Origin: Hansschlegelia zhihuaiae
GTDB lineage: Bacteria; Pseudomonadota; Alphaproteobacteria; Rhizobiales; Methylopilaceae
Assembly (NCBI RefSeq): GCF_004103825.1
Contig: NZ_RYFI01000022.1
Span: 3,115-67,114 of the forward strand
DNA length: 64,000 nucleotides
Direction of reading: 5' to 3'
Made by a program: the position numbers and the translations under genes. The notes beneath the pieces are model-generated. The model was not told where the DNA came from, ran no database searches, and was given only the letters and a program-made list of their open reading frames with translations. Each line of letters starts with the position of its first letter. Position 1 is the first letter of the stretch. Shown here piece by piece: positions 10,856-34,116 of the stretch.

Positions 10856-10857
10856 CG

Positions 10858-12814: not shown

Positions 12815-12823
12815 GACGGGGAC

Positions 12824-13215: not shown

Positions 13216-13255
13216 ACGTTCGGGCGTTTGTGTCCCCTGAGCCTGGGGGAGCGGC

Positions 13256-13593: not shown

Positions 13594-13682
13594 CTCTCGG
13601 CGTTCGAGCTAAGTAATCGTACGACTATCGAAGGATGCTTCCGTCGCTCCATGGTCCATTTTCCAGACCGTAGGAGACGAAA

Positions 13683-14477: not shown

Positions 14478-14503
14478 CGCCGACCGAACCAAACCCTGAC
14501 GCG

Positions 14504-14537
14504 CAAAAACGCCCCGCCGGCCGGAGCCGAGCGGGGC
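14504..14537 (-). terminator. Rho-independent terminator, minus strand
   Basis: GCCCCGC...GCGGGGC stem with the minus-strand T-run GTTTTTG. It ends the secreted protein gene at 14572-14910. Confidence 0.8.
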
Positions 14538-14571
14538 ATAGTGACGTGAGATGGGGATCCAACGCGGCAGC

Positions 14572-14910
14572 TTACTTCGTGTCGGCCTTTCCGCCCGTCG
14601 CGGGTGCGGCGCCGACGGTCCCGGGCGAGACTTGCTTTTCATCGATCTTCGGCGCGCCCGGGCGGTCGCCACCGCCCTCGGCCGCTGTCTTTTCGCCCTT
14701 CTGCTGAGCGCCGACATCCTGCGGGCTTGTGGCGACAGAATCCGTCGTCTTGTTCATCGCGCCGGTCGTCTTAGGCGACGTCGCCTTGTCGCCTGATGTC
14801 GATCCTGCGCCCTGATCAGCAGCCGAGTTCGACCGCTGGTCTTGAGCTAAGGTCGGCGGCACGCCGAGCGCCAGCGTCATCAAGGCTGCGGCTACAAGCT
14901 GATATCTCAA
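14572..14910 (-). CDS. Small secreted low-complexity protein
   Basis: TTG start at 14910 is preferred: AGGGAGG lies 5 nt upstream and the protein then begins with a normal signal peptide (residues 1-23, LRYQLVAAALMTLALGVPP...LAQ). The mature part of about 90 residues is low-complexity (Ser, Thr, Gly, Ala, Lys, Asp), probably disordered, and periplasmic or extracellular. An upstream ATG at 14946 would give an unusually long N-region. It is followed by its own terminator. No known function. Confidence 0.6.
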   Translation of the reverse strand: MRYQLVAAALMTLALGVPPTLAQDQRSNSAADQGAGSTSGDKATSPKTTGAMNKTTDSVATSPQDVGAQQKGEKTAAEGGGDRPGAPKIDEKQVSPGTVGAAPATGGKADTK

Positions 14911-15062
14911 GAGAGCCTCCCTGTTGGTTTCTCGCTTATTAAGCACCCTCGGGCCGAGATTGTTCCGCAGGCCAGTGCCTGCGAAGATCAGGGGCTACAA
15001 GCGATACAAGGTCGGGCGGAGTTACGCGTACTTCGGGCTGATGAACTTTGTGTCGTGCAAGA

Positions 15063-15431
15063 TCAGGATGCGCAGTGATCGATGGATTGCCTGATCGCAG
15101 CACGCACTGCCCCCGGATAATATGGCTTGGTGACGAACTTGCCGTCATCGGGAAGGTTTTCATTCGGAATGACAGCGTGTCCGGAGGTGACGATCAGCCG
15201 TTTGTCCGGCCACCGTGAGTGTACGACCTCGGCGAGTTCCAGCCCGTCCATTGTGCCGGGCATGTCGATGTCGGTGAACAGAAGCGTGATCTCAGGATGC
15301 GCCTCGAGCACGCGAACGGCCTCGTCGGCGTTCTGAGCTTCAAAGGCCATGCAGCCGAGACCCTCCACGATCTCGATCGCTCCCAAGCGCACGATCGGAT
15401 CGTCTTCCACGACTAGCACCACGCATTCCAT
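15063..15431 (-). CDS. Single-domain response regulator (CheY-like)
   Basis: 122-residue receiver domain: acidic pair D10-D11 (VVEDDPIVRLG), phospho-acceptor D54 (LLFTDIDMPG), switch Thr/Ser near 82-83 (IVTSGH) and Lys102 (FVTKPY). No output domain, so it must act by protein contact or phosphotransfer. The pattern (LVVEDDPIVR, TDIDMPG-MDGLEL, TSGH) is that of the many stand-alone receivers of Hyphomicrobiales. No kinase is adjacent. Start chosen at MECVVLVVEDD; the upstream in-frame extension is Arg-rich and lacks a ribosome site. Confidence 0.85.
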   Translation of the reverse strand: MECVVLVVEDDPIVRLGAIEIVEGLGCMAFEAQNADEAVRVLEAHPEITLLFTDIDMPGTMDGLELAEVVHSRWPDKRLIVTSGHAVIPNENLPDDGKFVTKPYYPGAVRAAIRQSIDHCAS

Positions 15432-15561
15432 GCGCCGTCTTTCTGCCGTTGATCTCCCTCCCGCCACTCTGCGCGAGCGCGGCTTCCAGGAATGCGCATT
15501 TGCGGCTTCCGGTTCCGCGGCCTGGACGCTGCCCGTGCGATCGTCGGGTCGCCCACGCAGA

Positions 15562-15597
15562 AGCAAGAAGCCCCGCAACAGCTGGGCTGCGCGGGGC
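15562..15597 (-). terminator. Hairpin terminator, minus strand
   Basis: Minus strand: GCCCCGC, loop, GCGGGGC, then TTCTTGCTTCT. Probably ends 15774-16079 before the receiver gene. The T-run is interrupted, so strength is uncertain. Confidence 0.55.
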
Positions 15598-15773
15598 GAG
15601 CATTTCGGTGACGTCGACAAGACGGTCGTAACTTCTTACGGCTGCTATCTCGCGCGACCGGAAAACGACGACCAGCACCGGCCGCGGTAGAAGGGCCAGC
15701 CGAAACTCGAGTGCTCGGGTCAAGACGGCGCTTCGTCGCTCTGTTTTTCGCGCTTGCCTTCGAGGGGAACGCC

Positions 15774-16079
15774 TCACCAGCCGAGAATTCCGCTCTTCTT
15801 CGAAGGAAGGTCACCGGTCGCCGTAATATGAGCAATAGTGCCGGAGGGCAACCGCTTGCGGTCAGACAGCAATAAGTTGATCTTGTGGCCGTCGTCGGTC
15901 ACAAAATCCAGGTTATCTTTTAGTTTAAACATAGCGATCGTCGACTGATGAGCTTCGACTTCGCCGGAACCGATGACCATACCACCACCGTTTTGCTCGT
16001 AGCACTCGAGTTCCAAGGTGCCCGCGAGCGCTGTGACGCCGAGCGCGCCGTTTCGTCTGATCGTGCCAAGATATTTCAT
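15774..16079 (-). CDS. Hypothetical protein, 101 aa
   Basis: Starts MKYLGTIRRNGALGVTALAG and continues as a soluble, probably beta-rich small domain (GMVIGSGEVEAHQSTIAMFK). AT content is higher than in its flanks. GGGA lies upstream of the ATG. A terminator-like hairpin follows at 15562-15597. No family recognised. Confidence 0.6.
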   Translation of the reverse strand: MKYLGTIRRNGALGVTALAGTLELECYEQNGGGMVIGSGEVEAHQSTIAMFKLKDNLDFVTDDGHKINLLLSDRKRLPSGTIAHITATGDLPSKKSGILGW

Positions 16080-16284
16080 GTCATTCCCTTTTCTGATCGC
16101 CGCAACTGTCGAGCGACATGGCTGTCGCCCCCGCCGTATCGATCCTGTCTATCGTGAAGGGACGCCTGAGTTCAGCCATCCCGCAAAGCAGGCATCGCAG
16201 CCACGATAGCCAAGACGACCCGCGGGATGAGTCTTTCCATAATCCATGATGTCGCGATGCCTCTCGGCTGTGTCGAAGGGATGG

Positions 16285-16557
16285 TCAAGATGCTGGTTCT
16301 TGTTTGCGGTCCGCTTCGATGGCGGCCTCGAGATCGGCATGATCGACGAGGTGCGACTGGATACGTCCGCCGCGCACCGGCAACGCCGGCGTCTGCAGCA
16401 TCGTGGCGGTTCGGCGATAGGCCAGGAACGAGATTCCAAGGATCTCGTCTTCGTCGATGACCAGGCGATAGGTTCCGGGCGGCAGGCGCTCCTCGATCGC
16501 AGTCAGGTCGAACGAGCGCTCGAACGTCACCGTGGTTTCGGTGGTGCGGGTTGCCAC
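16285..16557 (-). CDS. Conserved-looking hypothetical protein, 90 aa
   Basis: GTG start at 16557 behind GAGGGGCGAGGGA. The sequence reads ATRTTETTVTFERSFDL, then LPPGTYRLVIDEDEILGISF and an acidic-basic helix at the end (DHADLEAAIEADRK). This beta-strand-then-helix layout is familiar from short uncharacterised proteins of Hyphomicrobiales (from memory, not searched). It lies 11 nt after the 45-residue gene 16569-16706 on the same strand, a likely operon. A longer in-frame extension to 17184 only reads through other genes. Confidence 0.65.
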   Translation of the reverse strand: MATRTTETTVTFERSFDLTAIEERLPPGTYRLVIDEDEILGISFLAYRRTATMLQTPALPVRGGRIQSHLVDHADLEAAIEADRKQEPAS

Positions 16558-16568
16558 TCCCTCGCCCC

Positions 16569-16706
16569 TCAGGATTTCTTGGCTTTGGGCGACGCAGCGG
16601 CGCTCGCGAGCGCGCCGCGCGCCAACGTGGTGGAAGCCGCGACGGGCTCCTGGATCTTCTTGGGCTTCTTGGCTTCCTTGTTGCCGCGTCTTTGGACCTT
16701 CGCCAT
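16569..16706 (-). CDS. Small basic protein, 45 aa
   Basis: MAKVQRRGNKEAKKPKKIQE followed by an Ala/Ser-rich tail ending KAKKS. The N-terminus (MAKxQRRGNKExKKPK) matches a recurrent small basic protein of alphaproteobacteria of unknown function. It is likely to bind nucleic acid or the ribosome, judged by charge only. It heads a two-gene unit with 16285-16557. Confidence 0.6.
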   Translation of the reverse strand: MAKVQRRGNKEAKKPKKIQEPVAASTTLARGALASAAASPKAKKS

Positions 16707-16750
16707 GCGTCCTGCTCCCGGGTTGGCCGGCCTCGAATGCGGGCCGGAAG

Positions 16751-16782
16751 AAAAAACCCCGCCGCCTCAGAAGGCGACGGGG
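16751..16782 (-). terminator. Rho-independent terminator, minus strand
   Basis: Minus-strand CCCCGTCGCCT, loop TCTG, AGGCGGCGGGG, then TTTTTT. It separates the cold-shock gene upstream from the small basic protein gene. Confidence 0.85.
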
Positions 16783-16909
16783 TCGAAGACGCCTAAGCGC
16801 CTCTTCCGATCTGGTGCGGCAGCGCCGCCGATGAGGTTCGCCAGTACATCCGTGGTCGACCTCGTAGAGGAGCGGCGCGGGCGTCCTCCGGGCCCGGAGG
16901 ACGGCGCGA

Positions 16910-17122
16910 TCAGACCTGAACTTGCAGCCGGTCGGCCGACATCTTGCCGCTCTTGCGGTCGGCGACGAGTTCGTACTCGACCTTCTGGCCTTCCCGGAGA
17001 TCATAGATCCCGGCGCGCTCGACGGCGCTGACATGGACGAAGGCGTCTGCGCCGCCATCGTCAGGCGCGATGAAGCCAAAGCCCTTCTGGGCGTTGAACC
17101 ATTTGACTGTTCCCGTGGACAT
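16910..17122 (-). CDS. cspA: Cold-shock domain protein (CspA family)
   Basis: 70 residues: [20 protein letters not shown] carries RNP1 (KGFGFI), and [13 protein letters not shown] carries RNP2 (VHVSA). This is a single OB-fold nucleic-acid-binding domain of the usual length, acting as an RNA chaperone. Start at 17122 is set by AAAGGAAG upstream. The leader between it and the divergent gene at 17315 is about 190 nt and AT-rich, as often seen for csp genes whose mRNA leader senses temperature. Followed by a strong terminator. Which paralogue it is cannot be told. Confidence 0.92.
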
Positions 17123-17314
17123 GGGACTTCCTTTGGAAAATAAAAATGCGCGGCGACCAATATGGCGACGCGGTCGCGCTTCACATGAGCAGAAATAAAA
17201 TCTGATGAACGAGCCGAATTGCCCGGATCTCAAATCGTAATTCTTTTTGAACGACGACCTAAAATGCGCGTTCGGATGGTTTTTACAAGGACGCCGAGGG
17301 TATATTTCGCATAA

Positions 17315-17686
17315 ATGAGTTCGGCAGCGCGTCGGCGCCGCTTTTCGATATCGAAGATCGGAGATCTCTTGGACGTTATGGTGAACCCGGCCGCCGGTCG
17401 GAACGCGTGGCTGCTGACTGATCTTCTCGGCCGATCGATGGGCGTGATCCGGGCGGACGGGGGCAAGTTCGCCGTCGAACCCGAGGGCAAGGCTCGTGAG
17501 ACGATGAGGGGGATGCGTTGCGGCCCCTTCAACTCGCTCGACGAAGCCCTCGCCACGATCGAGACGCATACGCGGGGCGTGTGCCGCCGCGGGGCCGAAA
17601 GCGCTCAGGGGCCCGAAACGGATGTGGTCGAGGCGACCGACACATCGACCGACATTCCTGAGAAAGCGTCGACCGATCCCACGTAA
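17315..17686 (+). CDS. Hypothetical protein, 123 aa
   Basis: The central part looks genuine: [20 protein letters not shown], then [20 protein letters not shown] and [15 protein letters not shown]. It is a small domain, possibly phage- or plasmid-like in style. The C-terminal 27 residues overlap the convergent transglutaminase gene (17605-18489) and are low-complexity, so the natural end may have been altered. An internal ATG (MVNPAAG) is another possible start. No family recognised. Confidence 0.5.
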
Positions 17687-18489
17687 CTGCCGGACACCGG
17701 CATGATCTGGCGAACATCGCGCGCCACCGCGACCGGAATCAGATTCGCGCCTCCGACGCTCTGGTTGGTTGGATCGAACGTGATCCAGCCTGCGCCCGGC
17801 ACATAGACCTCGGACCAGGCGTGGGTGGAGCCGGCCCCGGCCGATCCCGTCAGGCCGAGCCCTGGATCGTGCAGGTAGCCCGAGACCACGCGCGCGCCGA
17901 AGCCGAGGCTTCGCACCGTCTCGGCGAAGAGCGTCGCCAGATCCCTGCAGGAGCCGCGCTTTCGGTCGAGCGTCTCTAATGGCGACTGCGTGCCCTCGTC
18001 CTCGCGGATCTCATAGGCCACCCCGCTCCAGACGCCGGCGTTGACATCCTTCAGCAGCGACAGCGTGTCCGTGGGCCGGCCGAAGACGAATCCCCGCGCC
18101 CAGGCCCGCACACGACCTGCGGGATCGAGATGCTGATTGAGCGTCGAGGATCCGAGATCGGCCCGCTCGTCGTCCGAATAAGGAAACGGATAGGAGATCG
18201 CCGACGCCGCTATGTCGAAAACCGGCCATGCGGTAGCGTCAAGCTCGATGTCCGCCACGCTTTCGATCACAAGTTGGTCGGCTGCGTCCCGGAACGTCGC
18301 CATTGCGATGGCGTTGCCCGAAACGTCGTACGACCAGGCAACGGACGCCACGGGCGAGATCCGGACGTCGAAGGCGACGAGCCTCAGCTCGCGGCTCTCC
18401 CGGGGCCGTATGACCAGCCGGTGAGGCTGAAGGGTGACCGGACGGCTGTATCGATAAGCCGTCCGGTGCCGGATGGTAAGGGCGTCCAG
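17605..18489 (-). CDS. Transglutaminase-like protein, no normal start codon
   Basis: Two-domain bacterial transglutaminase-like protein. N-terminal Bact_transglu_N part ([20 protein letters not shown]), then the papain-like core with Cys in [14 protein letters not shown], His in [12 protein letters not shown] and Asp in TFDPTNQ. The full conserved domain is open from an upstream TAG near 18530, but no ATG, GTG or TTG precedes it; CTG at 18489 ([10 protein letters not shown]) is the only start-like codon. The first GTG, at 18351, would remove about 46 conserved residues. Either CTG is used or the start has been lost. It converges with 17315-17686 and overlaps its end. Confidence 0.75.
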
Positions 18490-18611: not shown

Positions 18612-19805
18612 CTAAGACGTAGTGGTCTCGCAGCCGAAGAACCGCATCATCTCCAGCGACGCGTCCGGACCGGCCGGGTCGACGAAACTGCCGCCGGCGT
18701 GTCCCCCCGACCAGGCATGGCCGGCGCCGTCCACCAGCCACAGTTCGGCGACGATCTCGCCGGCCTGATCCGCCACAACCGTGACGGCGGCTCCGCGTCG
18801 ACGGGATCCGCCGGCCGCGGCGCGGCGCGTGACGATGGAGGCGGCGTCGGGCGTGGCCGCGTCCATAATCCGGGCGGCGTTGGACGGATGGACCGTGCTG
18901 TCGGCGCTTCCCTGGAACACGATGGTGCGCCCCGGATATCGCGCGCGGCCGGTCGAACTCTGCGCCCTACCGTTCCCGCGCATCGCCGCGAAGGCCGACG
19001 GTACGTCCTTGGCGGAGTTCGTCGGAAGCCCGGAATGGACCCCGACCGCGGCGTAGAGCTCCGGATAGGTCTCTCCCATCACCGCCGCCATGGCGCCGCC
19101 GGCCGAAAGGCCCGCGATGAAGACGCGCAAAGGATCTATCCTGAACTCGGCGACGATCGCCTCGGTCAATCCCGCCAGGATCGCAGGCTCGCCCGCGCCC
19201 CGCCGCTGATGCTTCGGCTCGAACCAGTTCCAGCACCCGTTCGCATTGTCCGAACGCGTCTGCCCAGGATAGGCGACCGCAAATCCGTTACTTTCGGCCA
19301 CTTCGTTCATGCCGGTGCCGCGCGCGAAGTCGTCCGGGTTCTGCGTGCAGCCATGCAGCATGACGATCAGTCCGCGCGGCCGCGCGGACGCCGAGGCCGG
19401 GACATAGATCTTGTAGGACCGAGACCCTGCGGCGCAGGAAAAGACGCGGGCGTCGAACCGGGCTCCGTCAGGAACCGACGGCCTAGTGCGCGCCTGCGCG
19501 CCGACCGACGCCATTCCCGGAAGTCCGGCGAAGGCGTCGGGCGTCATCTTGCCCGCCCTCAAGCGAGACACCGCTTCGCCCAGCGGCCGGGCCGTCGGCC
19601 GAGACTGTCCGGCGTCGTTCGCCTCGACCGTTCCCGCTCTCGACGACAATAAAGCGGCGGGGCGTGTCAGCGCGTCGGCCGCCGAAGCGTCGACTTTCGG
19701 ACGTCCGCCGAGGGCGGCCTGAATCAACCTCGTCGCCTCCGAGAGGTTTTGGGCGCGCGTCTCCTCGGACGCCCGGCGCAGGGCCGCGGCGAATGGCATG
19801 TTCAT
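18612..19805 (-). CDS. PHB-depolymerase-family esterase, copy 2
   Basis: Same architecture as the gene at 7690: conserved leader (FAAALRRASEETRAQNLSEA), variable linker, catalytic domain with IVMLHGCTQNPDDF, nucleophile GLSAGGAM, Asp region FQGSADSTVHPSN and His in HAWSGGHAGG. Start MNMPFAAAL follows its RHH gene by 30 nt, the same order and spacing as copy 1, in the opposite direction. The catalytic parts are close; the linker differs. Substrate unknown. Confidence 0.85.
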   Translation of the reverse strand: MNMPFAAALRRASEETRAQNLSEATRLIQAALGGRPKVDASAADALTRPAALLSSRAGTVEANDAGQSRPTARPLGEAVSRLRAGKMTPDAFAGLPGMASVGAQARTRPSVPDGARFDARVFSCAAGSRSYKIYVPASASARPRGLIVMLHGCTQNPDDFARGTGMNEVAESNGFAVAYPGQTRSDNANGCWNWFEPKHQRRGAGEPAILAGLTEAIVAEFRIDPLRVFIAGLSAGGAMAAVMGETYPELYAAVGVHSGLPTNSAKDVPSAFAAMRGNGRAQSSTGRARYPGRTIVFQGSADSTVHPSNAARIMDAATPDAASIVTRRAAAGGSRRRGAAVTVVADQAGEIVAELWLVDGAGHAWSGGHAGGSFVDPAGPDASLEMMRFFGCETTTS

Positions 19806-19835
19806 GATGACGATCCTTGGTTCGGGCTTTCGGCC

Positions 19836-20252
19836 CTAATGGATGCGGTCGGCCAACGCGACCTTAACCTCGGCGCTGGCTTGAAGCGCGCCGAGAATGG
19901 TGATGGAGCCTATGGTCGCGAGCGCGAGGTCCGGCGTCACGTCGGACTCGATGCGGGCGAGGCCGACGACCTTCAGGTGGAGCATTTCGCCGGCGGCCTT
20001 CGCGGCCTCGAGATCTGCGCGCGAATAGACGCGAAGCCCGAGTTCGAGGGTCTGGCGGGCGATCGACTGCGCGACGACGCCGTCATGCGCGCCAATCTGG
20101 TTGCGGATGGCTGTGCGGATGAAATCCGCCCTGTTCGAATAGAACCCCTCCCGCACCAGCAGGTCCATGCGGCCGAGGTCGACATAGCCCAGATTGACCG
20201 TGATCTTCTCCGTCTCATTGCCGGTGTCGCGTGTCGCGAGAGCTGACTTCAT
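19836..20252 (-). CDS. Ribbon-helix-helix (CopG-like) regulator, copy 2
   Basis: Paralogue of 7243-7659: KITVNLGYVDLGRMDLLVRE, FYSNRADFIRTAIRNQIGA and the same C-terminus (LALATIGSITILGALQAS). Start at 20252 (MKSALATRD) corresponds to the start chosen in copy 1, with GGAG upstream; in-frame ATG codons at 20264 and 20303 are alternatives. Likely first gene of the pair with the esterase 18612-19805. Confidence 0.75.
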   Translation of the reverse strand: MKSALATRDTGNETEKITVNLGYVDLGRMDLLVREGFYSNRADFIRTAIRNQIGAHDGVVAQSIARQTLELGLRVYSRADLEAAKAAGEMLHLKVVGLARIESDVTPDLALATIGSITILGALQASAEVKVALADRIH

Positions 20253-20583
20253 ACGAGACTCCATCCCCTCGGATGTCATGTGGATGGTCAGAGGATGCTG
20301 CACAAGGTGTCGCTCGTGATTTCGTCGGTGCGCGATTTGGGATTGCGACGCAGCTCAGATCGCCGTTTCGCCTAGGAAACAGGAGGAGCAAGGGGGGCTC
20401 TAGGCTGAGTTGACTTCACCGCCGGCAGACAGGTGAGCAGGGTAGGCCGTGCGAACTGGAGAATGTTCGATCCCGGTTCGTCTCGCTCAGCCAAACTTCC
20501 TAAGTCACTGAAAAATAAGCACTTTCAACTTCGGCGCGTGACTCAAACCGTATCAGGTTTCCGTAGCAGCAAGCCGTAGCAGT
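20253..20583. other. Intergenic region before phage block
   Basis: About 330 bp without a supported gene. It has a 7-bp inverted repeat, GGCTGAG (20403) and CTCAGCC (20486), enclosing 90 nt with a TTCGATC string that imitates a tRNA T-loop, but no cloverleaf forms. An AT-rich stretch (CACTGAAAAATAAG) follows. The phage-flanking repeat begins at 20584. Otherwise nothing recognised. Confidence 0.4.
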
Positions 20584-20642: not shown

Positions 20643-21875
20643 TTGCGCCTTCCTGCCCCTCTGTCGAAGTTTCTTGGTCTTTCCTTCGAGACCAAGTCTG
20701 CTCCGCCCGCGCCCTCTCCACATTCTCCTGGGGCGTGGGCGGAGATCTTCGCCGCCACGCCGACCGAGGCCGGCCCCTCCGTTACTCCCGAAAACGCCAT
20801 GCGCGTCCCCGCTGTCAAGGCGGCCGTCACCCTCATCTCGACGACGATTGGAAACCTACCGGTCAAAGTCTATGCACGCGACGGCGAGGGCAAGAAGCCC
20901 GCGCCCGACCATGACGCCTACGTCCTCGCCCACGACGAGGCGAACGACTGGACCAGCGCCGGCGAGCTCCGGCGTCAACTGACGTCCGACGCATTGCTGC
21001 ATGGCGACGCCTTCGCGGTCGCCACACGCCGGCCTGACGGCTCGCCCCTCGAGCTCATCCGCCTGGACCCGCGCGCCGTCGAGATCCTGACGCTGGACAC
21101 CGGCGCGCCGGCCTATCGCTACAATCACCAGGGCGGACAGACGATCTACCAGCACGCCGACGTGCTGCGCATCAGCGCCCCGAGCATCGACGGCGTGACC
21201 GGCCTCGCGCCCATCAAGGCCGCCCGCGAAGCCATCGCGACCGCCCTCGTCATGGAGGCGCACGCCGGCCGCATCTTCAAGAAGGGCTTCCGCCCCTCGG
21301 CCGTCATCACCCATCCCGGCAAGCTCTCCGATCGGGCGGCCGAGCGGCTCGCCAAGTTCAAGGGCGGCGAGGCGTCCGGCGAGAACGCCGGCGGCGTCGC
21401 CGTGCTGGAAGAGAACGCCAAGGTCGACGTGCTCGCCTTCTCCTCCGTCGACCAAGAGTTCAAGTCGCTCCGCGAGTTCACGGTCATCGAGATCGCCCGC
21501 GCTTTTGCGTGCCCACCGGTCCTCCTCGGCGACCTCTCGTCGGCCACCTTCAAGAATGCCGAGGAGCTCCGCACTCAGTTCGTCATCTTCACGCTCGCCC
21601 ATTGGCTCGGCCAGTGGCGCGACGCCTATGCGCGCGTGCTCCTCTCCCCCGAGGAGCGCCGGTCGCACGTCGTCGACTTCGTCCTGGACGGCCTTCTCCA
21701 GGGCGATAGCGAAGCGCGTGCGAAGATCTATCAGAGCCTGCGCGCCGCCGGCGTCATGACCGCCAATGAGGTCCGCACCCGCGAGAACCTCCCGGCCCGT
21801 TCCGACGGTGACGAGCTCGCCAGCCCCTTCACTCAGTCGAACGCCGCGACCGGCGCCCAGGAAGCCGCCGCGTGA
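20643..21875 (+). CDS. Phage portal protein (HK97 family)
   Basis: Portal ring subunit through which DNA enters the capsid. Typical segments: AWAEIFAATPTEAGPSVTPE, AVKAAVTLISTTIGNLPVKV, a central wing, and EIARAFACPPVLLGDLSSAT. About 400 residues, normal for the family. The frame opens right after a TGA with TTG at 20643 and no good ribosome site; the native start probably lay in DNA lost at the left repeat, with LSKFLGLSFE near the original N-terminus. Its stop overlaps the next gene as GTGA. Confidence 0.9.
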   Translation: MRLPAPLSKFLGLSFETKSAPPAPSPHSPGAWAEIFAATPTEAGPSVTPENAMRVPAVKAAVTLISTTIGNLPVKVYARDGEGKKPAPDHDAYVLAHDEANDWTSAGELRRQLTSDALLHGDAFAVATRRPDGSPLELIRLDPRAVEILTLDTGAPAYRYNHQGGQTIYQHADVLRISAPSIDGVTGLAPIKAAREAIATALVMEAHAGRIFKKGFRPSAVITHPGKLSDRAAERLAKFKGGEASGENAGGVAVLEENAKVDVLAFSSVDQEFKSLREFTVIEIARAFACPPVLLGDLSSATFKNAEELRTQFVIFTLAHWLGQWRDAYARVLLSPEERRSHVVDFVLDGLLQGDSEARAKIYQSLRAAGVMTANEVRTRENLPARSDGDELASPFTQSNAATGAQEAAA

Positions 21876-22195
21876 GTCCGCACGTCCAGTTCTTCGGCGA
21901 CGCCGAGCACACCTTCGCCCTGACGCCGACGCTCCTCGTCGAGTTCGAGCGCCTCGTCGGCGCCGGCGCCTGGGGAACCGCGCGCCGCATGTTCGCTGGC
22001 GACGCGACCGTGACCGAAGTCCGCGAGACCATCCGGCTCGGCCTGATCGGCGGCGGCGAGGCCCCGAAGCGCGCCCACGAGCTCGTCGAGACCTACGTCG
22101 GCGCGACGCCCTTCGCCGAGCTCTACGCGCTCGCCTCCGACGTCATGACCGCCGCCATGCTCGGCACGCCCGACGAGGCCGCCAATGCAGCTTGA
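21872..22195 (+). CDS. GTA/phage tail-assembly-chaperone-like protein
   Basis: 107 residues beginning (after GTG) SPHVQFFGDAEHTFALTPTL, with EFERLVGAGAWGTARRMFAG and ETIRLGLIGGGEAPKRAHEL, the pattern of the gene-transfer-agent family TAC_11 proteins that guide tail-tube or tape-measure assembly. Position between portal and protease is unusual, since such genes normally follow the tail tube. It overlaps the portal by 4 nt and the protease-capsid gene by 11 nt. Confidence 0.6.
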   Translation: MSPHVQFFGDAEHTFALTPTLLVEFERLVGAGAWGTARRMFAGDATVTEVRETIRLGLIGGGEAPKRAHELVETYVGATPFAELYALASDVMTAAMLGTPDEAANAA

Positions 22196-23726
22196 GACCA
22201 AGGCCGCCTTCACCCTCGACGGCGCCGGCGCGATCACCGCGACCGCATGGGTTTTCGCCGACGCCGACCGCACCGGCGACGTCATCACCAAGGGCGCGTT
22301 CGGCGCGATCGCCGGCTCGCTCCCGATGCTTTGGGCGCACGATCAGCGCGAGGTCATCGGCGTCTGGGAGTCGATCGCCGAGACCGCCCAGGGCCTCGTC
22401 GCCAAGGGCCGGCTCCTCGTCGAGACCGTCGTCAAGGCCCGCGAGGTCTACAGCCTCCTTAAGGAAGGCGCGGTCAACGGCGTCTCCATCGGCTTCGCCA
22501 TCAAGAACTTCGCCCGTCGCTCAGCCGGCGGTCGGACCATCTCGGCCGTCGACTTGGCCGAGATCTCCATCGTCTCCGTCCCGGCCCACGCCGGCGCCCG
22601 CGTGACGTCCCTCAAGTCCGCAGATCACGCGGCGCATCAAAAGGAACCTATCTTGGACGATCAGACCACCACGCCGGACGTTTCGGCGCTGGAAACCAAA
22701 CTCGCCGGCGTCGCCGACGAGGTGAAGAACCTGGGCGGCATCGCCGCCCGTCTCGACGCCATCGAGAAGAAGGCCGCCCGCCCGGCCCCGGCGGCCGGCC
22801 AGTCCGACGCCGATCTGGAGCGCAAGGCGTTCAACGTCTACCTGCACACCGGCGACGCGACCGAGCTCAAGGCCCTGACGGTCGGCGCCCCGAGCACCGG
22901 CGGCATCCTCGCCCCGGCGTCGTTCAACCCGCGCATCATCGAGAAGATCACCGAGTTCTCGCCGATCCGCGGCGTCGCGACCTCATTCACCATGGGCGGC
23001 CCGCTCGTCCAGTTCCCGCGGCTCGTCAATTCGGTCACACCCGCCTCTGTCACCGAGACCGGCACCCGCGCCGAGTCCGAGCCGTCGTTCGAGCTCATCG
23101 ATGGCAAGCCCTTCGAGATGGCCGTGATCGTGCCCGTCTCGCGCGTCATGTATGAGGACGCGACCGTCGACCTCGCGTCCTGGCTGGAGAACCACGTCGC
23201 CACCCAGTTCGGGAAGCTTGAGGCGTCTTGGTTCGTCAACGGCAACGGCACGACCCAGGCCGAAGGCGTCCTGACGAGTTCGGAAGTCGGCACGCTGACG
23301 ACCGCCGCCACGGCGATCGGGACCGACGACCTGATCGATGTGTTCTACAGCATCCCGAGCGCCTACGCGGCGCGCGGCCATTGGCTGATGAACCGCAAGA
23401 CCATGTCGGTCGTCCGCAAGCTGCGCGACGGCGACGGCAACCTGATTTGGCAGCAGAGCCTTCAGGCCGGCCAGCCCGGTCTCCTCCTCGGCCGCCCGGT
23501 CCTGGAAGCGGTCGACATGCCGAACCCGGCCGCCAACGCGACGCCGATCGTCTTCGGCGACTTCGCCAGCGCCTACACGATCATCGATCGCGTCGGCTTC
23601 GAAGCCGAATACGACCGCCTCACCGGCTGGAAGAACGGCATCATCAACCTCCTCGCGCGTCGGCGCGTGGGCGGCCGGATCACCCTCGGCGAGCCCCTCG
23701 TCAAGCTTAAGCTGAAGGCGGCGTAA
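22185..23726 (+). CDS. Fused prohead protease and HK97-type major capsid protein
   Basis: 513 residues. Residues 1-145 are a prohead protease: His52 in MLWAHDQREV, Ser101 in VNGVSIGF, and AEISIVSVPAH after it. Residues about 160-205 (SALETKLAGVADEVKNLGG) resemble the delta scaffold; residues 210-513 are the HK97-fold capsid protein (PRLVNSVTPASVTETGTRAE, IPSAYAARGHWLMNRKTM, YTIIDRVGFEAEYDRL). One frame, no stop between the parts. Self-cleavage would release the capsid subunit. Natural fusions are known but less common than separate genes. Confidence 0.9.
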   Translation: MQLETKAAFTLDGAGAITATAWVFADADRTGDVITKGAFGAIAGSLPMLWAHDQREVIGVWESIAETAQGLVAKGRLLVETVVKAREVYSLLKEGAVNGVSIGFAIKNFARRSAGGRTISAVDLAEISIVSVPAHAGARVTSLKSADHAAHQKEPILDDQTTTPDVSALETKLAGVADEVKNLGGIAARLDAIEKKAARPAPAAGQSDADLERKAFNVYLHTGDATELKALTVGAPSTGGILAPASFNPRIIEKITEFSPIRGVATSFTMGGPLVQFPRLVNSVTPASVTETGTRAESEPSFELIDGKPFEMAVIVPVSRVMYEDATVDLASWLENHVATQFGKLEASWFVNGNGTTQAEGVLTSSEVGTLTTAATAIGTDDLIDVFYSIPSAYAARGHWLMNRKTMSVVRKLRDGDGNLIWQQSLQAGQPGLLLGRPVLEAVDMPNPAANATPIVFGDFASAYTIIDRVGFEAEYDRLTGWKNGIINLLARRRVGGRITLGEPLVKLKLKAA

Positions 23727-23728
23727 TC

Positions 23729-24211
23729 ATGGCCAGCGTGACCAACGCCAAGTCGACGATCAGCATCGCCCCGAGCGGCGCGATCCCGACCACCGCCGCC
23801 GCCTACAAGGCCCTCACCTGGACCGTCATCAACGACGTCGAGGAGATCGGCGGGGAGTTCGGCGACACCTACGCCAAGGTCGAGGCCAAGGTTCTCGGCA
23901 CCCGCCGCGTCCGCAAGGGCAAGGGTTCCGTGGACGGCGGCGCGATCGAGCTCACGGTTCTCCGCGACGCCGCGGACGCCGGCCAGTCGGCGCTCCGCAC
24001 GGCGCTCGCCTCCGATGACCGCGTGTTCATCAAGATCGAGCTCGGCGACAAGCCGGCCGGCGCCAACGCGACCGGCAGCACGGCCTACATGCCGGTCCTC
24101 GTCTTCTCGGCGCCCGTCCAGGGCGGCGACGCCGACTCCTACGTGAAGCAGGTCTTCACCCTGGAGATCGACGGCGAGACCGTCACGGCCGCCCCGGCGG
24201 CCGGCGTCTGA
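23729..24211 (+). CDS. Phage tail tube protein
   Basis: 160 residues, MASVTNAKSTISIAPSGAIP with TWTVINDVEEIGGEFGDTYA, SVDGGAIELTVLRDAADAGQ and PVLVFSAPVQGGDADSYVKQ: the beta-rich layout of siphovirus tail tube subunits (lambda gpV/TTP type), including the diagnostic insertion and VKQVFTLEIDGE near the end. It starts 2 nt after the capsid gene. Confidence 0.75.
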   Translation: MASVTNAKSTISIAPSGAIPTTAAAYKALTWTVINDVEEIGGEFGDTYAKVEAKVLGTRRVRKGKGSVDGGAIELTVLRDAADAGQSALRTALASDDRVFIKIELGDKPAGANATGSTAYMPVLVFSAPVQGGDADSYVKQVFTLEIDGETVTAAPAAGV

Positions 24212-24216
24212 CGCTC

Positions 24217-24801
24217 ATGCTCGCGGCGGAGGAGATCACGATCAGGATCGACGGAGAGCGCATCGTTCTCCGGCCGACCCTGCGCGTGGCCCTCCGCCTC
24301 GAGCGTCGCCACGAGGGCCTCGCCGCCCTCGTGGACAAGATCCAGGACGGCGACCTCGCCGCCATCGCCGACGTGCTGCGCGAGCACTCACCGGCGTGGT
24401 CGGACGTCCCGTCCTTCATCGAGAGCCTGGGCGTCCCGCATGGTCTCTTTGCGGGCGTCCGGCACCTCATCCCGGCGCTCATCGCCCACGTCTACAGCCT
24501 CGCCGGCGTCGACCTCGAGGATGAGACCGACACGCCGTCGACCGGCTCGCGGCTCGCCTCCCGCGAAACCTTCGCCGAGCACCTGGAAGGTCTCTTCAAG
24601 GTCGCGACCGGATGGCTCGGCTGGAGCCCCGAAACCGCCTGGAGCAGCACGCCGGCCGAAATCCGTGCCGCCCAGGCCGGCTTCATTGATCTCCAGAATG
24701 CCCTTCGCGGCGTCGCCCCCAAGAAGCCCGACCACAGGACGCTCGACGACAAGTTCGCCGACGTCTTCCTCGGCCTCAGCACCCGCGCGCAGGCCGCCTG
24801 A
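24217..24801 (+). CDS. Phage tail assembly chaperone-like protein
   Basis: 194 residues. The N-terminal half (ITIRIDGERIVLRPTLRVAL, RRHEGLAALVDKIQDGDLAA) has the GTA/phage chaperone pattern; the second half contains GWLGWSPETAWSSTPAEIRA, which resembles the adjoining chaperone extension that in many siphoviruses is a separate gene or a frameshift product. So this may be a natural fusion. It lies directly downstream of the tail tube gene as expected. Confidence 0.65.
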   Translation: MLAAEEITIRIDGERIVLRPTLRVALRLERRHEGLAALVDKIQDGDLAAIADVLREHSPAWSDVPSFIESLGVPHGLFAGVRHLIPALIAHVYSLAGVDLEDETDTPSTGSRLASRETFAEHLEGLFKVATGWLGWSPETAWSSTPAEIRAAQAGFIDLQNALRGVAPKKPDHRTLDDKFADVFLGLSTRAQAA

Positions 24802-24802
24802 C

Positions 24803-25165
24803 ATGCCGCGCCGCCCTGCCCACTTCTGCAACTGCGGTCGGATTGTCGCCGCCTGTTCGCGCTGCGTCTGTCAGCAGGCCGCCGACCGCGTCCGTAAGGC
24901 CCGTCACGACCGGAACAGACCCTCGGCCCGCGAGCGCGGCTATGACCGAGATTGGCAGCGCGAGCGCGCCGCCTTCCTGATCGTCAACCCGACATGCAAG
25001 CGCTGCGGCGCCCAGGCGACCGACGTCGACCACATCAAGCCGCACCGCGGCGACCGCTGGCTATTCTGGGATCGAAGGAATTGGCAGGCCCTCTGCGGCC
25101 ATTGCCACGACAGCCATAAGCAACGCGAGGAACGCCACGCCCTGAAGTGCGAGGCGCTGGTCTGA
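24803..25165 (+). CDS. HNH endonuclease
   Basis: 120 residues with an N-terminal Cys cluster (FCNCGRIVAACSRCVC) and a C-terminal HNH domain: CKRCGAQATDVDHIKPHRGD, then RNWQALCGHCHDSHKQRE. The ligand Cys pairs and catalytic His are intact. In HK97-type phages the HNH protein works with terminase during packaging and usually sits at the packaging end; here it lies between tail genes. The TGA overlaps the next ATG. Confidence 0.85.
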   Translation: MPRRPAHFCNCGRIVAACSRCVCQQAADRVRKARHDRNRPSARERGYDRDWQRERAAFLIVNPTCKRCGAQATDVDHIKPHRGDRWLFWDRRNWQALCGHCHDSHKQREERHALKCEALV

Positions 25166-25521
25166 TGGCTCTCCTCACCTTCATTCCGCCCGTCGCCCCG
25201 AGCGCCCGCCTTCCCGTCGAGCCGAAGATCAACCTGCGAAAGGCCGAGTTCGGCGACGGCTACACACAGGCCAGCCCCGCCGGCCTCAATCACATTCGCG
25301 ACGTCGCCGAGCTCAAGTTCGAGATGATGACGTCGCTCCAGGCCGCCGGCGTCATCGCCTTCCTGCGCGAGCGCGGCGGCTATCAGCCGTTCCTCTACAC
25401 GCTCCCCGACGACGCCAGCCCGAAACGCTGGACGTGCGCGAAGTGGAAGCACGTCCGCGACGAAACCGGCCGCAACACGATCACCGCCACCTTTGAACAG
25501 GACTTCGGCATCTCCTCATGA
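25165..25521 (+). CDS. Minor tail protein, lambda gpM-like
   Basis: 118 residues: LRKAEFGDGYTQASPAGLNH, then VIAFLRERGGYQPFLYTLPD, KRWTCAKWKHVRDETGRNTI and TATFEQDF. These match the Phage_min_tail family (FGDGYEQRSPDG...FLEARGG...ATFEQ) that acts at the tail tip. It starts at an ATG overlapping the HNH stop, and its own stop overlaps the next start (ATGA). Confidence 0.85.
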   Translation: MALLTFIPPVAPSARLPVEPKINLRKAEFGDGYTQASPAGLNHIRDVAELKFEMMTSLQAAGVIAFLRERGGYQPFLYTLPDDASPKRWTCAKWKHVRDETGRNTITATFEQDFGISS

Positions 25522-26066
25522 CCAGCCCCGCCACCTCTCGAGAGAGCGAGACCGAACAGTCGGCGCGCGACCGCGCCCTTTGGTGCGCAGTCATTCGGCA
25601 GGCCTTGACCGATGCCACGCGCACAATCGCACCGAGCGAGCCGAACCGCGCCCACGTTGAGCAGCGGCAAGCCCGCACATGGTTCACCGGCGCCGGAAAG
25701 GACTTCCGAGACGTCTGTTACCTCGCCGGCATGGACCCCGACGCTGTGAGAGAGCGAGCCGTTCGCCTCATCGAGGAAGCCGCAAGCGCTGAGCCCGTTG
25801 TCGTCCGGAAGGGACGCAGCGCGAACATCATCGAGTTCGAGGGGAAGACGCTCACGCGACGCCAGTGGGCAGCGGAGAAGGGACTGACGTTCGAGACCCT
25901 GGCGTCGCGCCTTCGTAACGAGTGGCCGATCGACGCCGCATTGAACACGCCGACCAATCCCGCTCGCCGGCGCCGACATGGCCGACCGGAGGCCCGGGGG
26001 GTGGGTCGCGTCTCAGGCGTGCACGCCGGGACCGGCGCGCTCCCCACCGCGCAAATGTCCGCCTAA
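25518..26066 (+). CDS. Phage-type hypothetical protein
   Basis: 182 residues. The first part (RDRALWCAVIRQALTDATRT, ARTWFTGAGKDFRDVCYLAG, MDPDAVRERAVRLI) is a helical module frequent in phages of alphaproteobacteria; the second (EGKTLTRRQWAAEKGLTFET) looks like a helix-turn-helix. The last 35 residues are Arg/Gly-rich and may be altered by the insertion that follows. It could be a DNA-binding regulator of phage genes (inference). Confidence 0.6.
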   Translation: MTSPATSRESETEQSARDRALWCAVIRQALTDATRTIAPSEPNRAHVEQRQARTWFTGAGKDFRDVCYLAGMDPDAVRERAVRLIEEAASAEPVVVRKGRSANIIEFEGKTLTRRQWAAEKGLTFETLASRLRNEWPIDAALNTPTNPARRRRHGRPEARGVGRVSGVHAGTGALPTAQMSA

Positions 26067-26086
26067 TTGGGATTTTTCTCTGATGG

Positions 26087-26374
26087 CTAGACGCCCATCG
26101 GCAACAATGCCGGCACTACTAAATAGAGTTCAGCGATGAATGCAGCCAACAGTATCACCCCTCGCCATCCGATCATGGCTGGCGCAACAATCAAAACAAT
26201 TGCTGAAGCTAAGAATACCCAAATAAGGTTGAGCATTATTGACACGCCGAATTCTACGCTTGCTCCTAGCTTGTGGGCGACGCGCGAATACAACAGCAAC
26301 GCCGGCGGAGCAACTAGAGCGGCAAGTGCAGACACCCATGTCCACCGCTTCAAGCGTTCGGATACCAAAATCAT
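26087..26374 (-). CDS. Membrane cargo gene (moron-like), 95 aa
   Basis: The only minus-strand gene in the phage block. Sequence MILVSERLKRWTWVSALAAL then three predicted membrane spans (LAALVAPPALLLYS; MLNLIWVFLASAIVLIVAPA; GVILLAAFIAELYLVVPALL). The DNA is markedly AT-richer than the phage genes. AAGGAG precedes the ATG too closely (2 nt), so TTG at codon 3 may be the true start. It interrupts an otherwise overlapping gene chain, the hallmark of an inserted accessory gene. Function unknown; superinfection exclusion is one possibility. Confidence 0.6.
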   Translation of the reverse strand: MILVSERLKRWTWVSALAALVAPPALLLYSRVAHKLGASVEFGVSIMLNLIWVFLASAIVLIVAPAMIGWRGVILLAAFIAELYLVVPALLPMGV

Positions 26375-26398
26375 GCTCCTTCGCTTCGGTCCCACTTG

Positions 26399-26683
26399 AT
26401 GATTATTACAGTCTCTAACGTCAAGGCGCATCTCCGCATCGTCGGCACTGCCGACGACGAGCTCCTCGGCGACTACATCGAGGCCGCGGAAGACTACGTC
26501 CGCCAGTTCGTCGACCCGATGCCCGACCCTGTCCCGGCGAGCCTTAAGCAGGCCGTGCGGATGCTCGTCGCGAACTTCTATGAGCACCGCGAGGACACGA
26601 TCGTCGGCCTCGATGCGCGCCAGCTTCCGATCGGGTTCTGGGATCTCGTGAACCAACACCGCTGGCAGGAGCCGGCGGCGTGA
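26399..26683 (+). CDS. Head-tail connector, gp6-like
   Basis: 94 residues: ITVSNVKAHLRIVGTADDEL, IEAAEDYVRQFVDPMPDPVP, ASLKQAVRMLVANFYEHRED and QLPIGFWDLVNQHR. This is the four-helix gp6/DUF3199-like adaptor that sits under the portal. ATG 26399; TTG 26396 is possible. It restarts the plus-strand chain after the cargo gene. Confidence 0.85.
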   Translation: MIITVSNVKAHLRIVGTADDELLGDYIEAAEDYVRQFVDPMPDPVPASLKQAVRMLVANFYEHREDTIVGLDARQLPIGFWDLVNQHRWQEPAA

Positions 26684-27057
26684 GCTCGAATAAGGCGGCG
26701 CTCGCCGCCATCCGCCGCGACCTCCTCAAGACCATCCCCGCCCAGGTCCAGGCAGAGGTCGAGAAGGCCCTAGACAAGTCGGCGCACGAGTTCGCGGACA
26801 ACGCCCAGGCGCTTGCGCCGCGGCAGGATGGCGACCTCGCCGACTCCGTCCGCGTCGAGCCCGGCGCCGACAACCTGTCTCGCACCGTCGTCGCCGGCGA
26901 TCAGGACGCGCCTCAGGCGACGTTCATCGAATTCGGCACGCCCAACGCCGACGCGGACCCGTTCTATTGGCCCGCGTTCCGGCTCCTCGAAAAGCGCCGC
27001 TCCGGGCAGATCAATCGCGCCGTGAACAAGGCGCTCAAGAAGTGGGGCGGCGGATGA
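26680..27057 (+). CDS. HK97 gp10-like tail completion protein
   Basis: 125 residues with the family pattern: helical N-terminus, then NAQALAPRQDGDLADSVRVE, TVVAGDQDAPQATFIEFGTP and DPFYWPAFRLLEKRR. GTG start overlapping the connector stop (GTGA). Joins head and tail. Confidence 0.85.
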   Translation: MSSNKAALAAIRRDLLKTIPAQVQAEVEKALDKSAHEFADNAQALAPRQDGDLADSVRVEPGADNLSRTVVAGDQDAPQATFIEFGTPNADADPFYWPAFRLLEKRRSGQINRAVNKALKKWGGG

Positions 27058-27470
27058 CGTTCGCGCCCGTCGCCCTGCACCGCGCCATGCGCGCTCGTCT
27101 CGTCGCCACGCCGGCCGTTATCGCGGCCGTTCCCGTCGCGCAGATCGTCGACGCCCAGACGCGCCCCGAGGCCCCGGCCGTGATCCAGATCGGCGAAGGC
27201 ACGGCGCTGCGCGAGAACCTGACGCTCTCCCGGCGTCACGCCCGCGTGCTGGCGAAGCTCGACGTCTGGACCCTCGCCGGCGGCACGTCCGCCGCCCGCA
27301 ACATCGCCGGTCTCGTCGCGGACGCGCTGCGCGCCGACCTGGACCTCGCGGACGGCTTCCGCATCCTGGACCAGCAGATCGAACGCGTCGTCTTCAGCCG
27401 CGATCCGTCGAGCGAACGCGGCCACGCCACGCTCTACGTGGGCGTGCTCATCGAGGAGCCGATCCAGTGA
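27054..27470 (+). CDS. Tail terminator-like protein (DUF3168)
   Basis: 138 residues: FAPVALHRAMRARLVATPAV, PEAPAVIQIGEGTALRENLT, VLAKLDVWTLAGGTSAARNI and FSRDPSSERGHATLYVGVLI, matching DUF3168 tail-completion proteins. ATG overlaps the gp10-like stop (ATGA). Confidence 0.8.
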   Translation: MTFAPVALHRAMRARLVATPAVIAAVPVAQIVDAQTRPEAPAVIQIGEGTALRENLTLSRRHARVLAKLDVWTLAGGTSAARNIAGLVADALRADLDLADGFRILDQQIERVVFSRDPSSERGHATLYVGVLIEEPIQ

Positions 27471-27799
27471 GGGCCGGCCGCCTGGACCGCGCCATCGCCA
27501 TCGAGCGCCTGGGCGCGATGGACATCGACCTCGACGGCGTGCCCTTGGACACCTGGACCACGCTCGCGACGGTCCCGGCCGAGGTCGTCCAGGTCGCCGC
27601 CGACGAGTTCCTGACGGGCGCCGGCGTCTCCCAGTCGACCACCATCATCTTCCGCGTGCGCTACCTCGACGGCCTTCAGGAAACCGACCGCGTCCGCTTC
27701 AACGGCCGCGCCTATGGCGTCACGTCGCTCGTCGAGCTCGGCCGCCGCGAGGGCCTAGAGATCCGCGCCACCACGAAGGCGGCAGATGCCCTCGGCTAG
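27467..27799 (+). CDS. Phage head-tail joining / head closure protein
   Basis: 110 residues beginning (after GTG) RAGRLDRAIAIERLGAMDID and containing TWTTLATVPAEVVQVAADEF and FRVRYLDGLQETDRVRFNGR, a Phage_H_T_join (SPP1 gp16-like) domain. GTG overlaps the previous stop. Its end overlaps the small terminase start by 14 nt. Order relative to gp10 and DUF3168 is reversed compared with most HK97-type phages. Confidence 0.8.
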   Translation: MRAGRLDRAIAIERLGAMDIDLDGVPLDTWTTLATVPAEVVQVAADEFLTGAGVSQSTTIIFRVRYLDGLQETDRVRFNGRAYGVTSLVELGRREGLEIRATTKAADALG

Positions 27800-28193
27800 T
27801 CGATCTCGTGCTGGACCGAAGGCCGCGCCGAGGCCCGCGAAGGACGCGCTCACCCGCGCCCCGAAGGCACCCGCGCACCTGACGGCCGAGGGTCGCGCCG
27901 AATGGCGGCGCGTCGCCCCGCACGTCGTCGCGTCCGGCGCCTTCGCGCCCGTGCATCTCCCGCTCCTCGAGGTCTATTGCGTCCACCTGGGCCGCGTCCG
28001 CGAGCTCGAGCGCCAGATCCAGGCGACCGCGGCGGCCGGTGGCGACGTCGCGCGCCTCATGCGCCTCCAGGACGGCGCCAGCAAGACTGCTCTGCGCTAC
28101 GCCGCCGAGCTCTACGCCAGCCCCGCCGCCGGCTCGCGCTTCATCGCGTCCGGTGCCCATGACAACGCCGACCTCGCCGCGATGGGGATCTGA
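27786..28193 (+). CDS. Small terminase subunit, P27 family
   Basis: 135 residues: basic N-terminus, APAHLTAEGRAEWRRVAPHV, FAPVHLPLLEVYCVHLGRVR and a C-terminal GSRFIASGAHDNADLAAMGI. This is the P27-type DNA-recognition subunit of the packaging motor. The stop TGA overlaps the next ATG by one base. Confidence 0.85.
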   Translation: MPSASRSRAGPKAAPRPAKDALTRAPKAPAHLTAEGRAEWRRVAPHVVASGAFAPVHLPLLEVYCVHLGRVRELERQIQATAAAGGDVARLMRLQDGASKTALRYAAELYASPAAGSRFIASGAHDNADLAAMGI

Positions 28194-29092
28194 TGGCGCG
28201 GCGTCCCGACTGGCTGTTCGACGGCTCGCCGATCGACGACCCGCTCGGCCACGGCGAGCGCGCGGTCCAGTTCCTCCGCGGCCTTCGGCACGCCGCGACC
28301 GGCGGCCCCTTTCAGCTTGACCCGTGGATGGAGCGGCTTGTCCGCATGATCTATGGCCCGCGTTGGCACGACGGAACGCGCCGCTACCGCATGGTGGACA
28401 TCATGCTCCCGCGCGGTTCGCATAAGACGGGCCTGGGCGCCGGCCTCTCGATGCTCCACACGATCGGCTGGGAGAAGCTCCCGCTCGGACAGGTCGCGCT
28501 CGCCGCCTGCAACCGCGAACAGGCCCGCATCGCCTTCAATGAGTGCATGGGCTTCGTGGTTGCCGATCCCCGCCTCGGCCGTCACGTCAGCATCCGGGAC
28601 AGCCGCCACGAGATCACGCATCGCACGGCGCGCAGCACGCTCAAGGCGATCTCTGCCGACGCCGCGACCGCCAACGGCAAGACGTCGTCCTTCGTGCTGT
28701 TCGACGAGATCCACGCCTGGAAGGACCGCCGCCTTTACGACACGCTGCGCACTGGCCTGAACAAGGTGCCCGGCTCGCTCGGCATTGTCATTTCCCAGGC
28801 CGGCGTCGGCACGAAGAACCTCGCCGCGGACGTGTTCGGCCACGCCCGGCGCTTTTCGTCCGGCGCCTGTGAAGCGGGCGGTAGCAAATCGCGTCGGCGT
28901 TTTGCGGCGGCGGCTTGGTGCGCCGCGTCGCCTCGAATAAAATTGCTCGGGCCTTCAAGTTCTGGACCGCGCCCGCGGTCTCCGCGCCCTGTGGATCGAC
29001 GGCGGCGGCTCGTCCGACGCCGGGTTGACGGACTCGCTGGTCGAGCGGACGTTCGCGCTCATATGGTGATCTCGTCAGGAGACCCGCCATGA
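28193..29092 (+). pseudogene. Large terminase subunit, ATPase half only
   Basis: Residues 1-220 match Terminase_1 large subunits: Walker A-like LPRGSHKTGLG (residues 72-82), Walker B FVLFDEIHAW (167-176) and coupling motif VISQAGVGTKNLAAD. The similarity stops at about residue 220 (near 28852); the rest of the frame (Arg-rich) is unrelated, so the nuclease domain and some 280-300 residues are missing. The frame then runs over the right 54-bp repeat and ends one base after the selD ATG begins. It cannot package DNA alone. Confidence 0.8.
28915..28968 (+). repeat. Right copy of 54-bp direct repeat flanking phage block
   Basis: 54 bp from TTGGTGCGCC to the shared core TCAAGTTCTGGACC (28955-28968). 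See the left copy at 20584-20636. It lies about 60 bp beyond the point where terminase similarity is lost and 120 bp before selD. Confidence 0.7.
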
Positions 29093-33737: not shown

Positions 33738-33813
33738 AGAGCGCGGCAGGGCCACGGCGTCGAGCCGTGACGCCGATTGACACCCGCCACAGTCCCGCCA
33801 TAGCGTCCGGCCC

Positions 33814-33980
33814 GACGGTTCCCCTCGGGGATCAAAAGGGAACGCAGTGGGGCTTCGGCCCGAAGCTGCGGCTGCCCCCGCAACTGTAAGCGGCGAGCGC
33901 TTCGTCATCGGCCACTGGGCTCCCGAGCCTGGGAAGGCGACGCCAAGCGCAGCGACCCGCGAGCCAGGAGACCTGCCGTC
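33814..33980 (+). promoter_or_regulatory. Cobalamin riboswitch
   Basis: Classic adenosylcobalamin aptamer: closing stem GACGG (33814) with CCGTC (33976); GGGAA after ATCAAAA; the core GCTGCCCCCGCAACTGTAA; GCCACTG and GGGAAGGC; and the B12 box GAGCCAGGAGACCTGCC. It lies in the leader of the TonB-dependent receptor at 34117, so that cobalamin should repress uptake. A downstream GC hairpin (CACACGCGGACG region, 33990-34060) could be the expression platform. Confidence 0.95.
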
Positions 33981-34116
33981 AGTCGTGTGGTCACACGCGG
34001 ACGCGTCGGGCGGGGTGCACCGATGGTTGGCGAACCGTCGGACGCGGGCGATCTGCGTGTGATCGGGGAGACTTCGAGTTCGCGGTGACGTGCCACTCGT
34101 CCCGCTCGGGGTCTCG

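Follow-up and report, generated by a model that had tools for sequence, protein, structure and literature searches.

The window examined here is the whole 64,000-nucleotide (64-kb) stretch of a Hansschlegelia zhihuaiae genome (4.62 Mb, 61 contigs), and unqualified coordinates refer to it. Positions 20643 to 28852 of the plus strand carry a prophage remnant, defined by family matches and DNA comparison, that runs from a portal gene (PF04860, 1e-85 in Pfam) to a truncated terminase gene. A protease-capsid fusion of 513 aa (22185-23726; PF04586 and PF05065 in Pfam) is a single ORF here and two genes in the related elements L158, L155 and L156. A TAC-like protein of the prophage scored slightly below the Pfam cut-off, and a by-eye reading of 23729-24211 as a tail tube gene found no support in Pfam and was discarded. 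There follow an HNH endonuclease gene (24818-25165; PF01844; phrog_2323, 3e-25; start codon not settled), a phage minor tail protein gene (25165-25521; PF05939, 2e-21) and a gene for a protein with an HNH-associated DNA-binding-like domain (25518-26066; phrog_3377, 6e-07). Further along are the gene for Ad1, a gp6-like head-tail connector or adaptor (26399-26683; PF05135, 9e-17; phrog_40, 1e-23), a block encoding HK97-gp10-like, tail completion gp17-like, head completion and small terminase subunit proteins (26680-28193; Pfam and PHROGs) and the ATPase part only of the large terminase subunit (28193-28852; Pfam and DNA comparison with L158), all on the plus strand. These genes abut or share a few bases (25165; 25518/25521; 26680/26683; 27054/27057; 27467/27470), and from 24.8 to 28.2 kb the genes touch or overlap throughout, with the sole exception of 26067-26398.

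The prophage is a defective remnant. Its large terminase gene is similar in DNA to the intact L158 homologue (547 aa) only as far as 28852, some 220 residues into the protein, and the 64-kb window contains no match to the L158 integrase or tape measure protein. On the far side, chromosomal similarity to genome G004 starts only at 29089, the start of SelD. Elsewhere in the window, two alike gene pairs lie mutually inverted to the left of the prophage (7192-8886 and 18612-20303), by eye an apparent duplication; the larger ORF of each pair is presumably depolymerase- or esterase-like, with a small ORF beside it. A cobalamin riboswitch is located at 33799-33994 (RF00174, 123 bits).

The gap in the gene chain holds gene X (26087-26374, minus strand), which reads from an ATG at 26374 to a TAG at 26087-26089 and encodes 95 aa with no known family. 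A first-pass annotation had described an AT-richer minus-strand membrane gene that breaks an overlapping phage chain, and our analysis agrees: the GC content of 26078-26395 is 0.525, compared with 0.687 in the left and 0.700 in the right phage flank, and among the 318-bp windows of the whole stretch only 1.35% equal or exceed its AT richness. A single-sequence structure model (pLDDT 71, moderate confidence) predicts three transmembrane helices at residues 2-35, 40-67 and 70-90. Positively charged residues (R7, K9 and R10) stand near the N-terminus and the last ten residues are uncharged. When the insert was shuffled with its dinucleotides preserved, 26 of 2000 sequences had an ORF of 92 codons or more in reverse (49 when both strands are counted). 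One reverse frame was measured in each shuffle, and its hydropathy never reached that of X, which is 1.45 (shuffled mean 0.22, sd 0.22, maximum 1.08). By codon position the GC content of X is 0.56/0.42/0.56, in surroundings of 67% GC. A Shine-Dalgarno-like AAGGAG, read from the sequence (26376-26381, minus strand), lies 1 nt from the ATG, which is closer than ideal; its distance to a TTG at codon 3 is about 7 nt, which leaves the start codon of X uncertain. Scans of 25900-26700 returned no terminator-like signal and no promoter-like signal of the sigma-70-type consensus, and the insert had no Rfam match at the gathering threshold.

The nearest relatives, found via the adaptor protein, are L004/L158 from IMG/VR, whose Ad1 is 89-91% identical to that of the window, and L011/L152 from another genome of the genus (G008), at 66-67%. 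A further candidate relative, L002, was set aside as the same genome (100% over 8003 bp). Alignment of the L004 and L011 DNA to the window stops at 26077 and resumes at 26405-26412, with 12-20 bp between these points in the relatives. Measured from a conserved element to Ad1, the gap is 320 bp in the window, 6 bp in L158 and 5 bp in L152. The insert is a true insertion of about 315 bp net relative to the nearest relatives, in which the site is empty. The first-pass annotation had put a 330-bp break at 26067-26398; the gap is real and its extent needs correction, because 26067-26078 belong to the conserved phage element, which leaves an AT-rich insert proper of approximately 26079-26398. TGATG stands at both insert borders in the window, as a target-site duplication or microhomology would give; five such bases easily arise by chance, and nothing comparable was seen by eye at L155.

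The conserved element (25995-26078, plus strand, 84 bp) overlaps the 3′ end of gene 25518-26066. The approximately 85 bp before the insert are 84-88% identical among the window, L004 and L011, and within the gene itself the DNA alignment to the relatives is lost from 25523-25606 to 25991-25994. The end of the encoded protein is, by eye, less alike than the DNA, so conservation seems to act at the DNA level. We built a nucleotide profile of the element from 12 copies; one of its seed rows (L127) had been placed wrongly and supplied only its 3′ part. Together with pattern scans of IMG/VR, the profile gave at least 59 distinct element loci, 52 of them with Ad1 downstream. The loci came from Ad1 searches and from two IMG/VR pattern scans, the second of which gave at least 120 stretches; of 121 loci numbered L190-L310, 38 passed the element model and two exact duplicates were dropped, and the other 23 loci are one per phage from earlier matches, with repeats of the same record dropped and L059 as the sole contribution of the first pattern scan. 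The loci are neither a complete nor a random sample. Among the matches listed, 52 of the 59 loci have an HNH gene no more than 1800 bp upstream of the element. No HNH gene was detected in the other seven: two have less than 200 bp of upstream DNA, and five have more than 2600 bp and another gene order, so the association is not strict.

In L059 the element is followed directly by genes for a small terminase (PF05119, 4e-18) and a large terminase (PF03354, 6e-05, slightly below cut-off). In L230, L282, L223 and L215 what follows it in place of Ad1 is, by eye, a small ORF resembling a helix-turn-helix protein and one resembling a portal, which indicates that the element is common to phages of other gene order. 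In HK97, whose small terminase gene lies at 50-535 from the genome start, the available text of several papers places an HNH gene directly upstream of the terminase genes and cos, with 3′ overhangs at cos and an HNH protein, gp74, that stimulates cos cleavage (PMC9410871, PMC11331095, PMC10448857). Based on the HNH gene upstream, the terminase genes of L059 and this HK97 arrangement, we infer that the 84-bp element is probably the cos packaging site, a reading drawn from conservation and neighboring genes. When INPHARED was searched with the L156 copy, no phage had the whole element and four records were covered over 38-45%. TerL finds only distant phages there, all records being below 60% identity and the matches listed at 26-37%.

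The first-pass annotation had proposed comparing the same locus in related phages, and the result favors cargo: X is absent from them and is not a conserved structural gene. The gap between the element and Ad1 is 0-55 bp in 49 of 52 junctions among the matches listed, the remainder being 185 bp in L163, 320 bp in the window and 322 bp in L155; these profile-based gaps are approximate (L162 scored 55, and its Ad1 ORF begins at 19). L155 belongs to the same genome as L152 and to a different prophage, one that is more complete than the remnant in the window (terminases, a tape-measure-like ORF and an integrase-like gene). Its 322-bp insert, of GC 0.48, occupies the same place as that of the window and contains a reversed ORF of 92-101 aa for a small membrane protein. 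The hydropathy of that protein, 1.20, exceeds the maximum of 1.03 in 2000 shuffles of the insert minus its last bases, and 39 of 2000 shuffles give at least 92 codons. Scans of L155 returned one promoter-like signal (0.2 expected) and one terminator-like signal (1.4 expected). In L156/L014, which are close to L155 and have nearly the same adaptor, the slot is empty, and in L163 it holds a plus-strand gene for a 61-aa DUF2158 protein.

A common origin of the window and L155 inserts is suggested by protein comparison. Of 371 windows of equal hydrophobicity, which overlap one another and so are not independent, 367 aligned with X less well than the L155 protein did. Against hydrophobic ORFs, the global score of the pair beat all 61 and the local score was matched by 2 of 61. 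The BLASTP E value between the two proteins is 0.52, which is not significant, so common descent is only suggested.

Cargo also occurs on the other side of the element. Reversed genes were seen by eye upstream in L159 (113 aa, membrane protein), L160 (168 aa), L241 (164 aa), L161 (138 aa), L214 (174 aa) and L223 (96 aa), which makes 6 of 59 loci among the matches listed, counted by eye, with none seen by eye in the others. The L160 and L241 proteins are 47% identical over 154 residues, and that of L160 matches phrog_1244. The L159 membrane protein resembled neither X nor the L155 protein. Different genes thus sit at the same place in relatives, downstream of the element in the window, L155 and L163 and upstream in the six loci. 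PADLOC was run on eight cargo proteins, a set without the DUF2158 protein of L163, and found no known or clear defence protein: six had no match, and the weak scores were to LmuB for L123 (the same gene as L160; E 0.008) and to an Effector for L241 (E 0.038).

A homologue search with the 95-residue protein, suggested in the first-pass annotation as a check in prophages, gave nothing beyond the gene itself. Only the copy of its own genome was recovered from IMG/VR, and no homologue was found in INPHARED, in plasmids, in 12 other genomes of the genus or in GTDB genome contigs, where the search reaches close relatives only. X has no Pfam family above the cut-off (best IncF, E 0.059), no match in PHROGs, PADLOC or NCBIfam, and no match among PDB sequences; in a viral structure library the best E was 0.75. 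A class-wide search of 384 other genomes gave matches to X in five, at E 0.004-0.009; we took these for noise, given the number of genomes searched and the internal stops in two of the matches. A profile combining X with the L155 protein recovered only the window's own copy from IMG/VR, the L155 protein alone had no match in IMG/VR or INPHARED, and the window Ad1 found nothing in the genome collection.

We propose, with a probability of roughly 0.5 for the reading as a whole, that X is a horizontally acquired, reversed phage cargo gene encoding an inner-membrane exclusion protein beside cos. Its cargo part is highly probable. The first-pass annotation had seen X in the classic position of a moron; insertion, composition and a recurrent cargo position speak for that name, and a terminator and a sigma-70-type promoter of its own were the part that did not appear in the scans of 25900-26700. 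Superinfection exclusion is the more tentative part; position, orientation and predicted helices together make an exclusion protein the most likely identity of X. X would have been acquired by a temperate tailed phage or phage-derived element with an HK97-like packaging and head module, which it entered in reverse orientation between the packaging site and the first head-tail gene. The product would be a small three-helix inner-membrane protein, with the N-terminus probably inside, that would be expressed in the lysogen without depending on the late genes, which are silent there, and may hinder the DNA entry of competing phages from its place in the inner membrane. X may now be decaying with its prophage, since the terminase C-terminus is missing and an integrase and tape measure were not found in the window.

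The same state of decay is what one would expect if X has no function at all and the insert is a foreign fragment that landed in a tolerated gap and is being lost with a dead prophage. This is rather unlikely, yet it would account for a remnant prophage, an orphan gene in all collections searched, a codon-position GC not adapted to the surroundings and an empty scan for sigma-70-type promoters. It fits less well with a reverse frame that stays open across almost all of the insert and exceeds 2000 of 2000 shuffles in hydrophobicity, with the Shine-Dalgarno-like motif before X, or with an insert of similar length and kind at the same place in the more complete L155 prophage. The size of X also recalls the class I holins, which have about 95 aa or more and three helices, N-terminus out, and are encoded in a lysis cassette with an endolysin. 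X fits such a holin in length and helix count, and phage holins are among its weak, non-significant structural matches. A holin or other lysis protein is nevertheless improbable: no endolysin or lysis gene appeared among the nine neighboring proteins scanned with Pfam and PHROGs, X is reversed relative to the late genes, and the charges at R7, K9 and R10, with an uncharged C-terminal end, suggest that the N-terminus is in. We therefore do not file X as a holin, because no lysis neighbor was found and its charges suggest the opposite topology.

Small hydrophobic proteins can depolarize membranes, and a small hydrophobic protein in a cargo site could accordingly be a membrane toxin or affect the host in some way other than exclusion. 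We think this improbable too, given an insert with little room for a partner gene and no Rfam match at the gathering threshold, and a protein that matches nothing in PADLOC or NCBIfam. The working part of the insert could finally be an 87-aa ORF on the plus strand (26136-26399), whose stop overlaps the Ad1 ATG as TGATG in the usual phage fashion. That is very unlikely, however, as the plus-strand ORFs of at least 50 aa in L155 are one of 60 aa, unlike it, and a next one that runs into Ad1, and it is the reverse frames of both inserts that show exceptional hydrophobicity.

Several known systems resemble this arrangement. P2 phages and P4 satellites have defence hotspots adjacent to cos, in which many genes are anti-phage and, in P4, stand in either orientation, according to the part of the study available (Rousset et al. 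2022, PMC9122126). As there described, those hotspots and ours alike place variable accessory genes, which differ from relative to relative, directly by the packaging site, a probable one in our case. They differ in that the present elements have an HK97-type terminase and HNH lineage, single small genes, no clear defence match and a putative cos, and in that few of them hold anything in the slot downstream of the element. In the accessible text, Tai genes of P4-like satellites are located close to cos, and those of phages mostly precede the packaging module (PMC11364771). A HEG-rich exchange region upstream of the terminase genes and cos is likewise presented as a hot spot in the available portion of Barth et al. 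(2023, PMC10448857); it shares with our loci the HNH gene and, probably, the cos neighborhood, and differs in holding HEG-like nucleases, whereas reversed membrane or other small genes are found here. Among the matches listed in our literature searches on the slot, its cargo and satellites, none describes this slot.

Comparable single proteins also exist. The HK97 moron product gp15 is said to be a membrane protein that excludes phages; it and X, likened here by description only, are both membrane-protein cargo of HK97-type phages. P22 SieA, in the excerpted account, has 162-164 aa, three predicted transmembrane helices and the motif FxRYPxEAxxFNK (PMC10883804). It resembles X as a small membrane protein with three predicted helices carried as prophage cargo, and by this partial description the two are set apart by length (95 aa for X) and by the motif, which by eye is absent from X. 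For these two reasons, the shorter length and the missing motif, X was not filed as SieA.

Several of the elements with this slot are compact. L156 (G009:C6:78500-97500) holds an integrase, portal, protease, capsid, HNH gene, adaptors, terminases and a large tape measure within about 15 kb (2843-18074), L155, L158 and L163 are compact elements like it, and several IMG/VR records of the L156-type family are 15-20 kb long. In PHROGs, the L156 tape measure protein matches many tape measure families and, weakly, one tail-fibre family; a 112-aa protein matches a tail tube family there. The tape measure proteins of L158 (5659-8997) and L155 (3430-5940) appear by eye to contain what we take to be a lysozyme-like and a CHAP-like segment, respectively. 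No baseplate or receptor-binding protein was recognized among nine L156 proteins in PHROGs and three in Pfam, the rest being by eye head and packaging proteins. The L156-type element is possibly satellite-like, and since L156 has head, packaging and tape measure genes and no recognized receptor-binding tail part, the cassettes might serve such an element instead of an ordinary phage. A broader and quite speculative idea is that an unrecognized family of small three-helix exclusion proteins has its first two members in X and the L155 protein and is borne on reversed cassettes of about 320 bp, which occupy a single slot, always between cos and the first adaptor gene, in compact (approximately 15-20 kb) integrating elements of this order.

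As an orphan in a dead prophage, X is itself of modest importance. Variable cargo beside the packaging site was known already; what is added is the slot of this lineage and two small membrane genes in it. Cos-proximal slots elsewhere are, in the part of the work available, a good source of new defence systems (PMC9122126). If our reading is true, cos-proximal cargo slots like those of P2 and P4 would extend to HK97-type elements in several families of one order, and the 84-bp element would provide a simple sequence handle for finding them.
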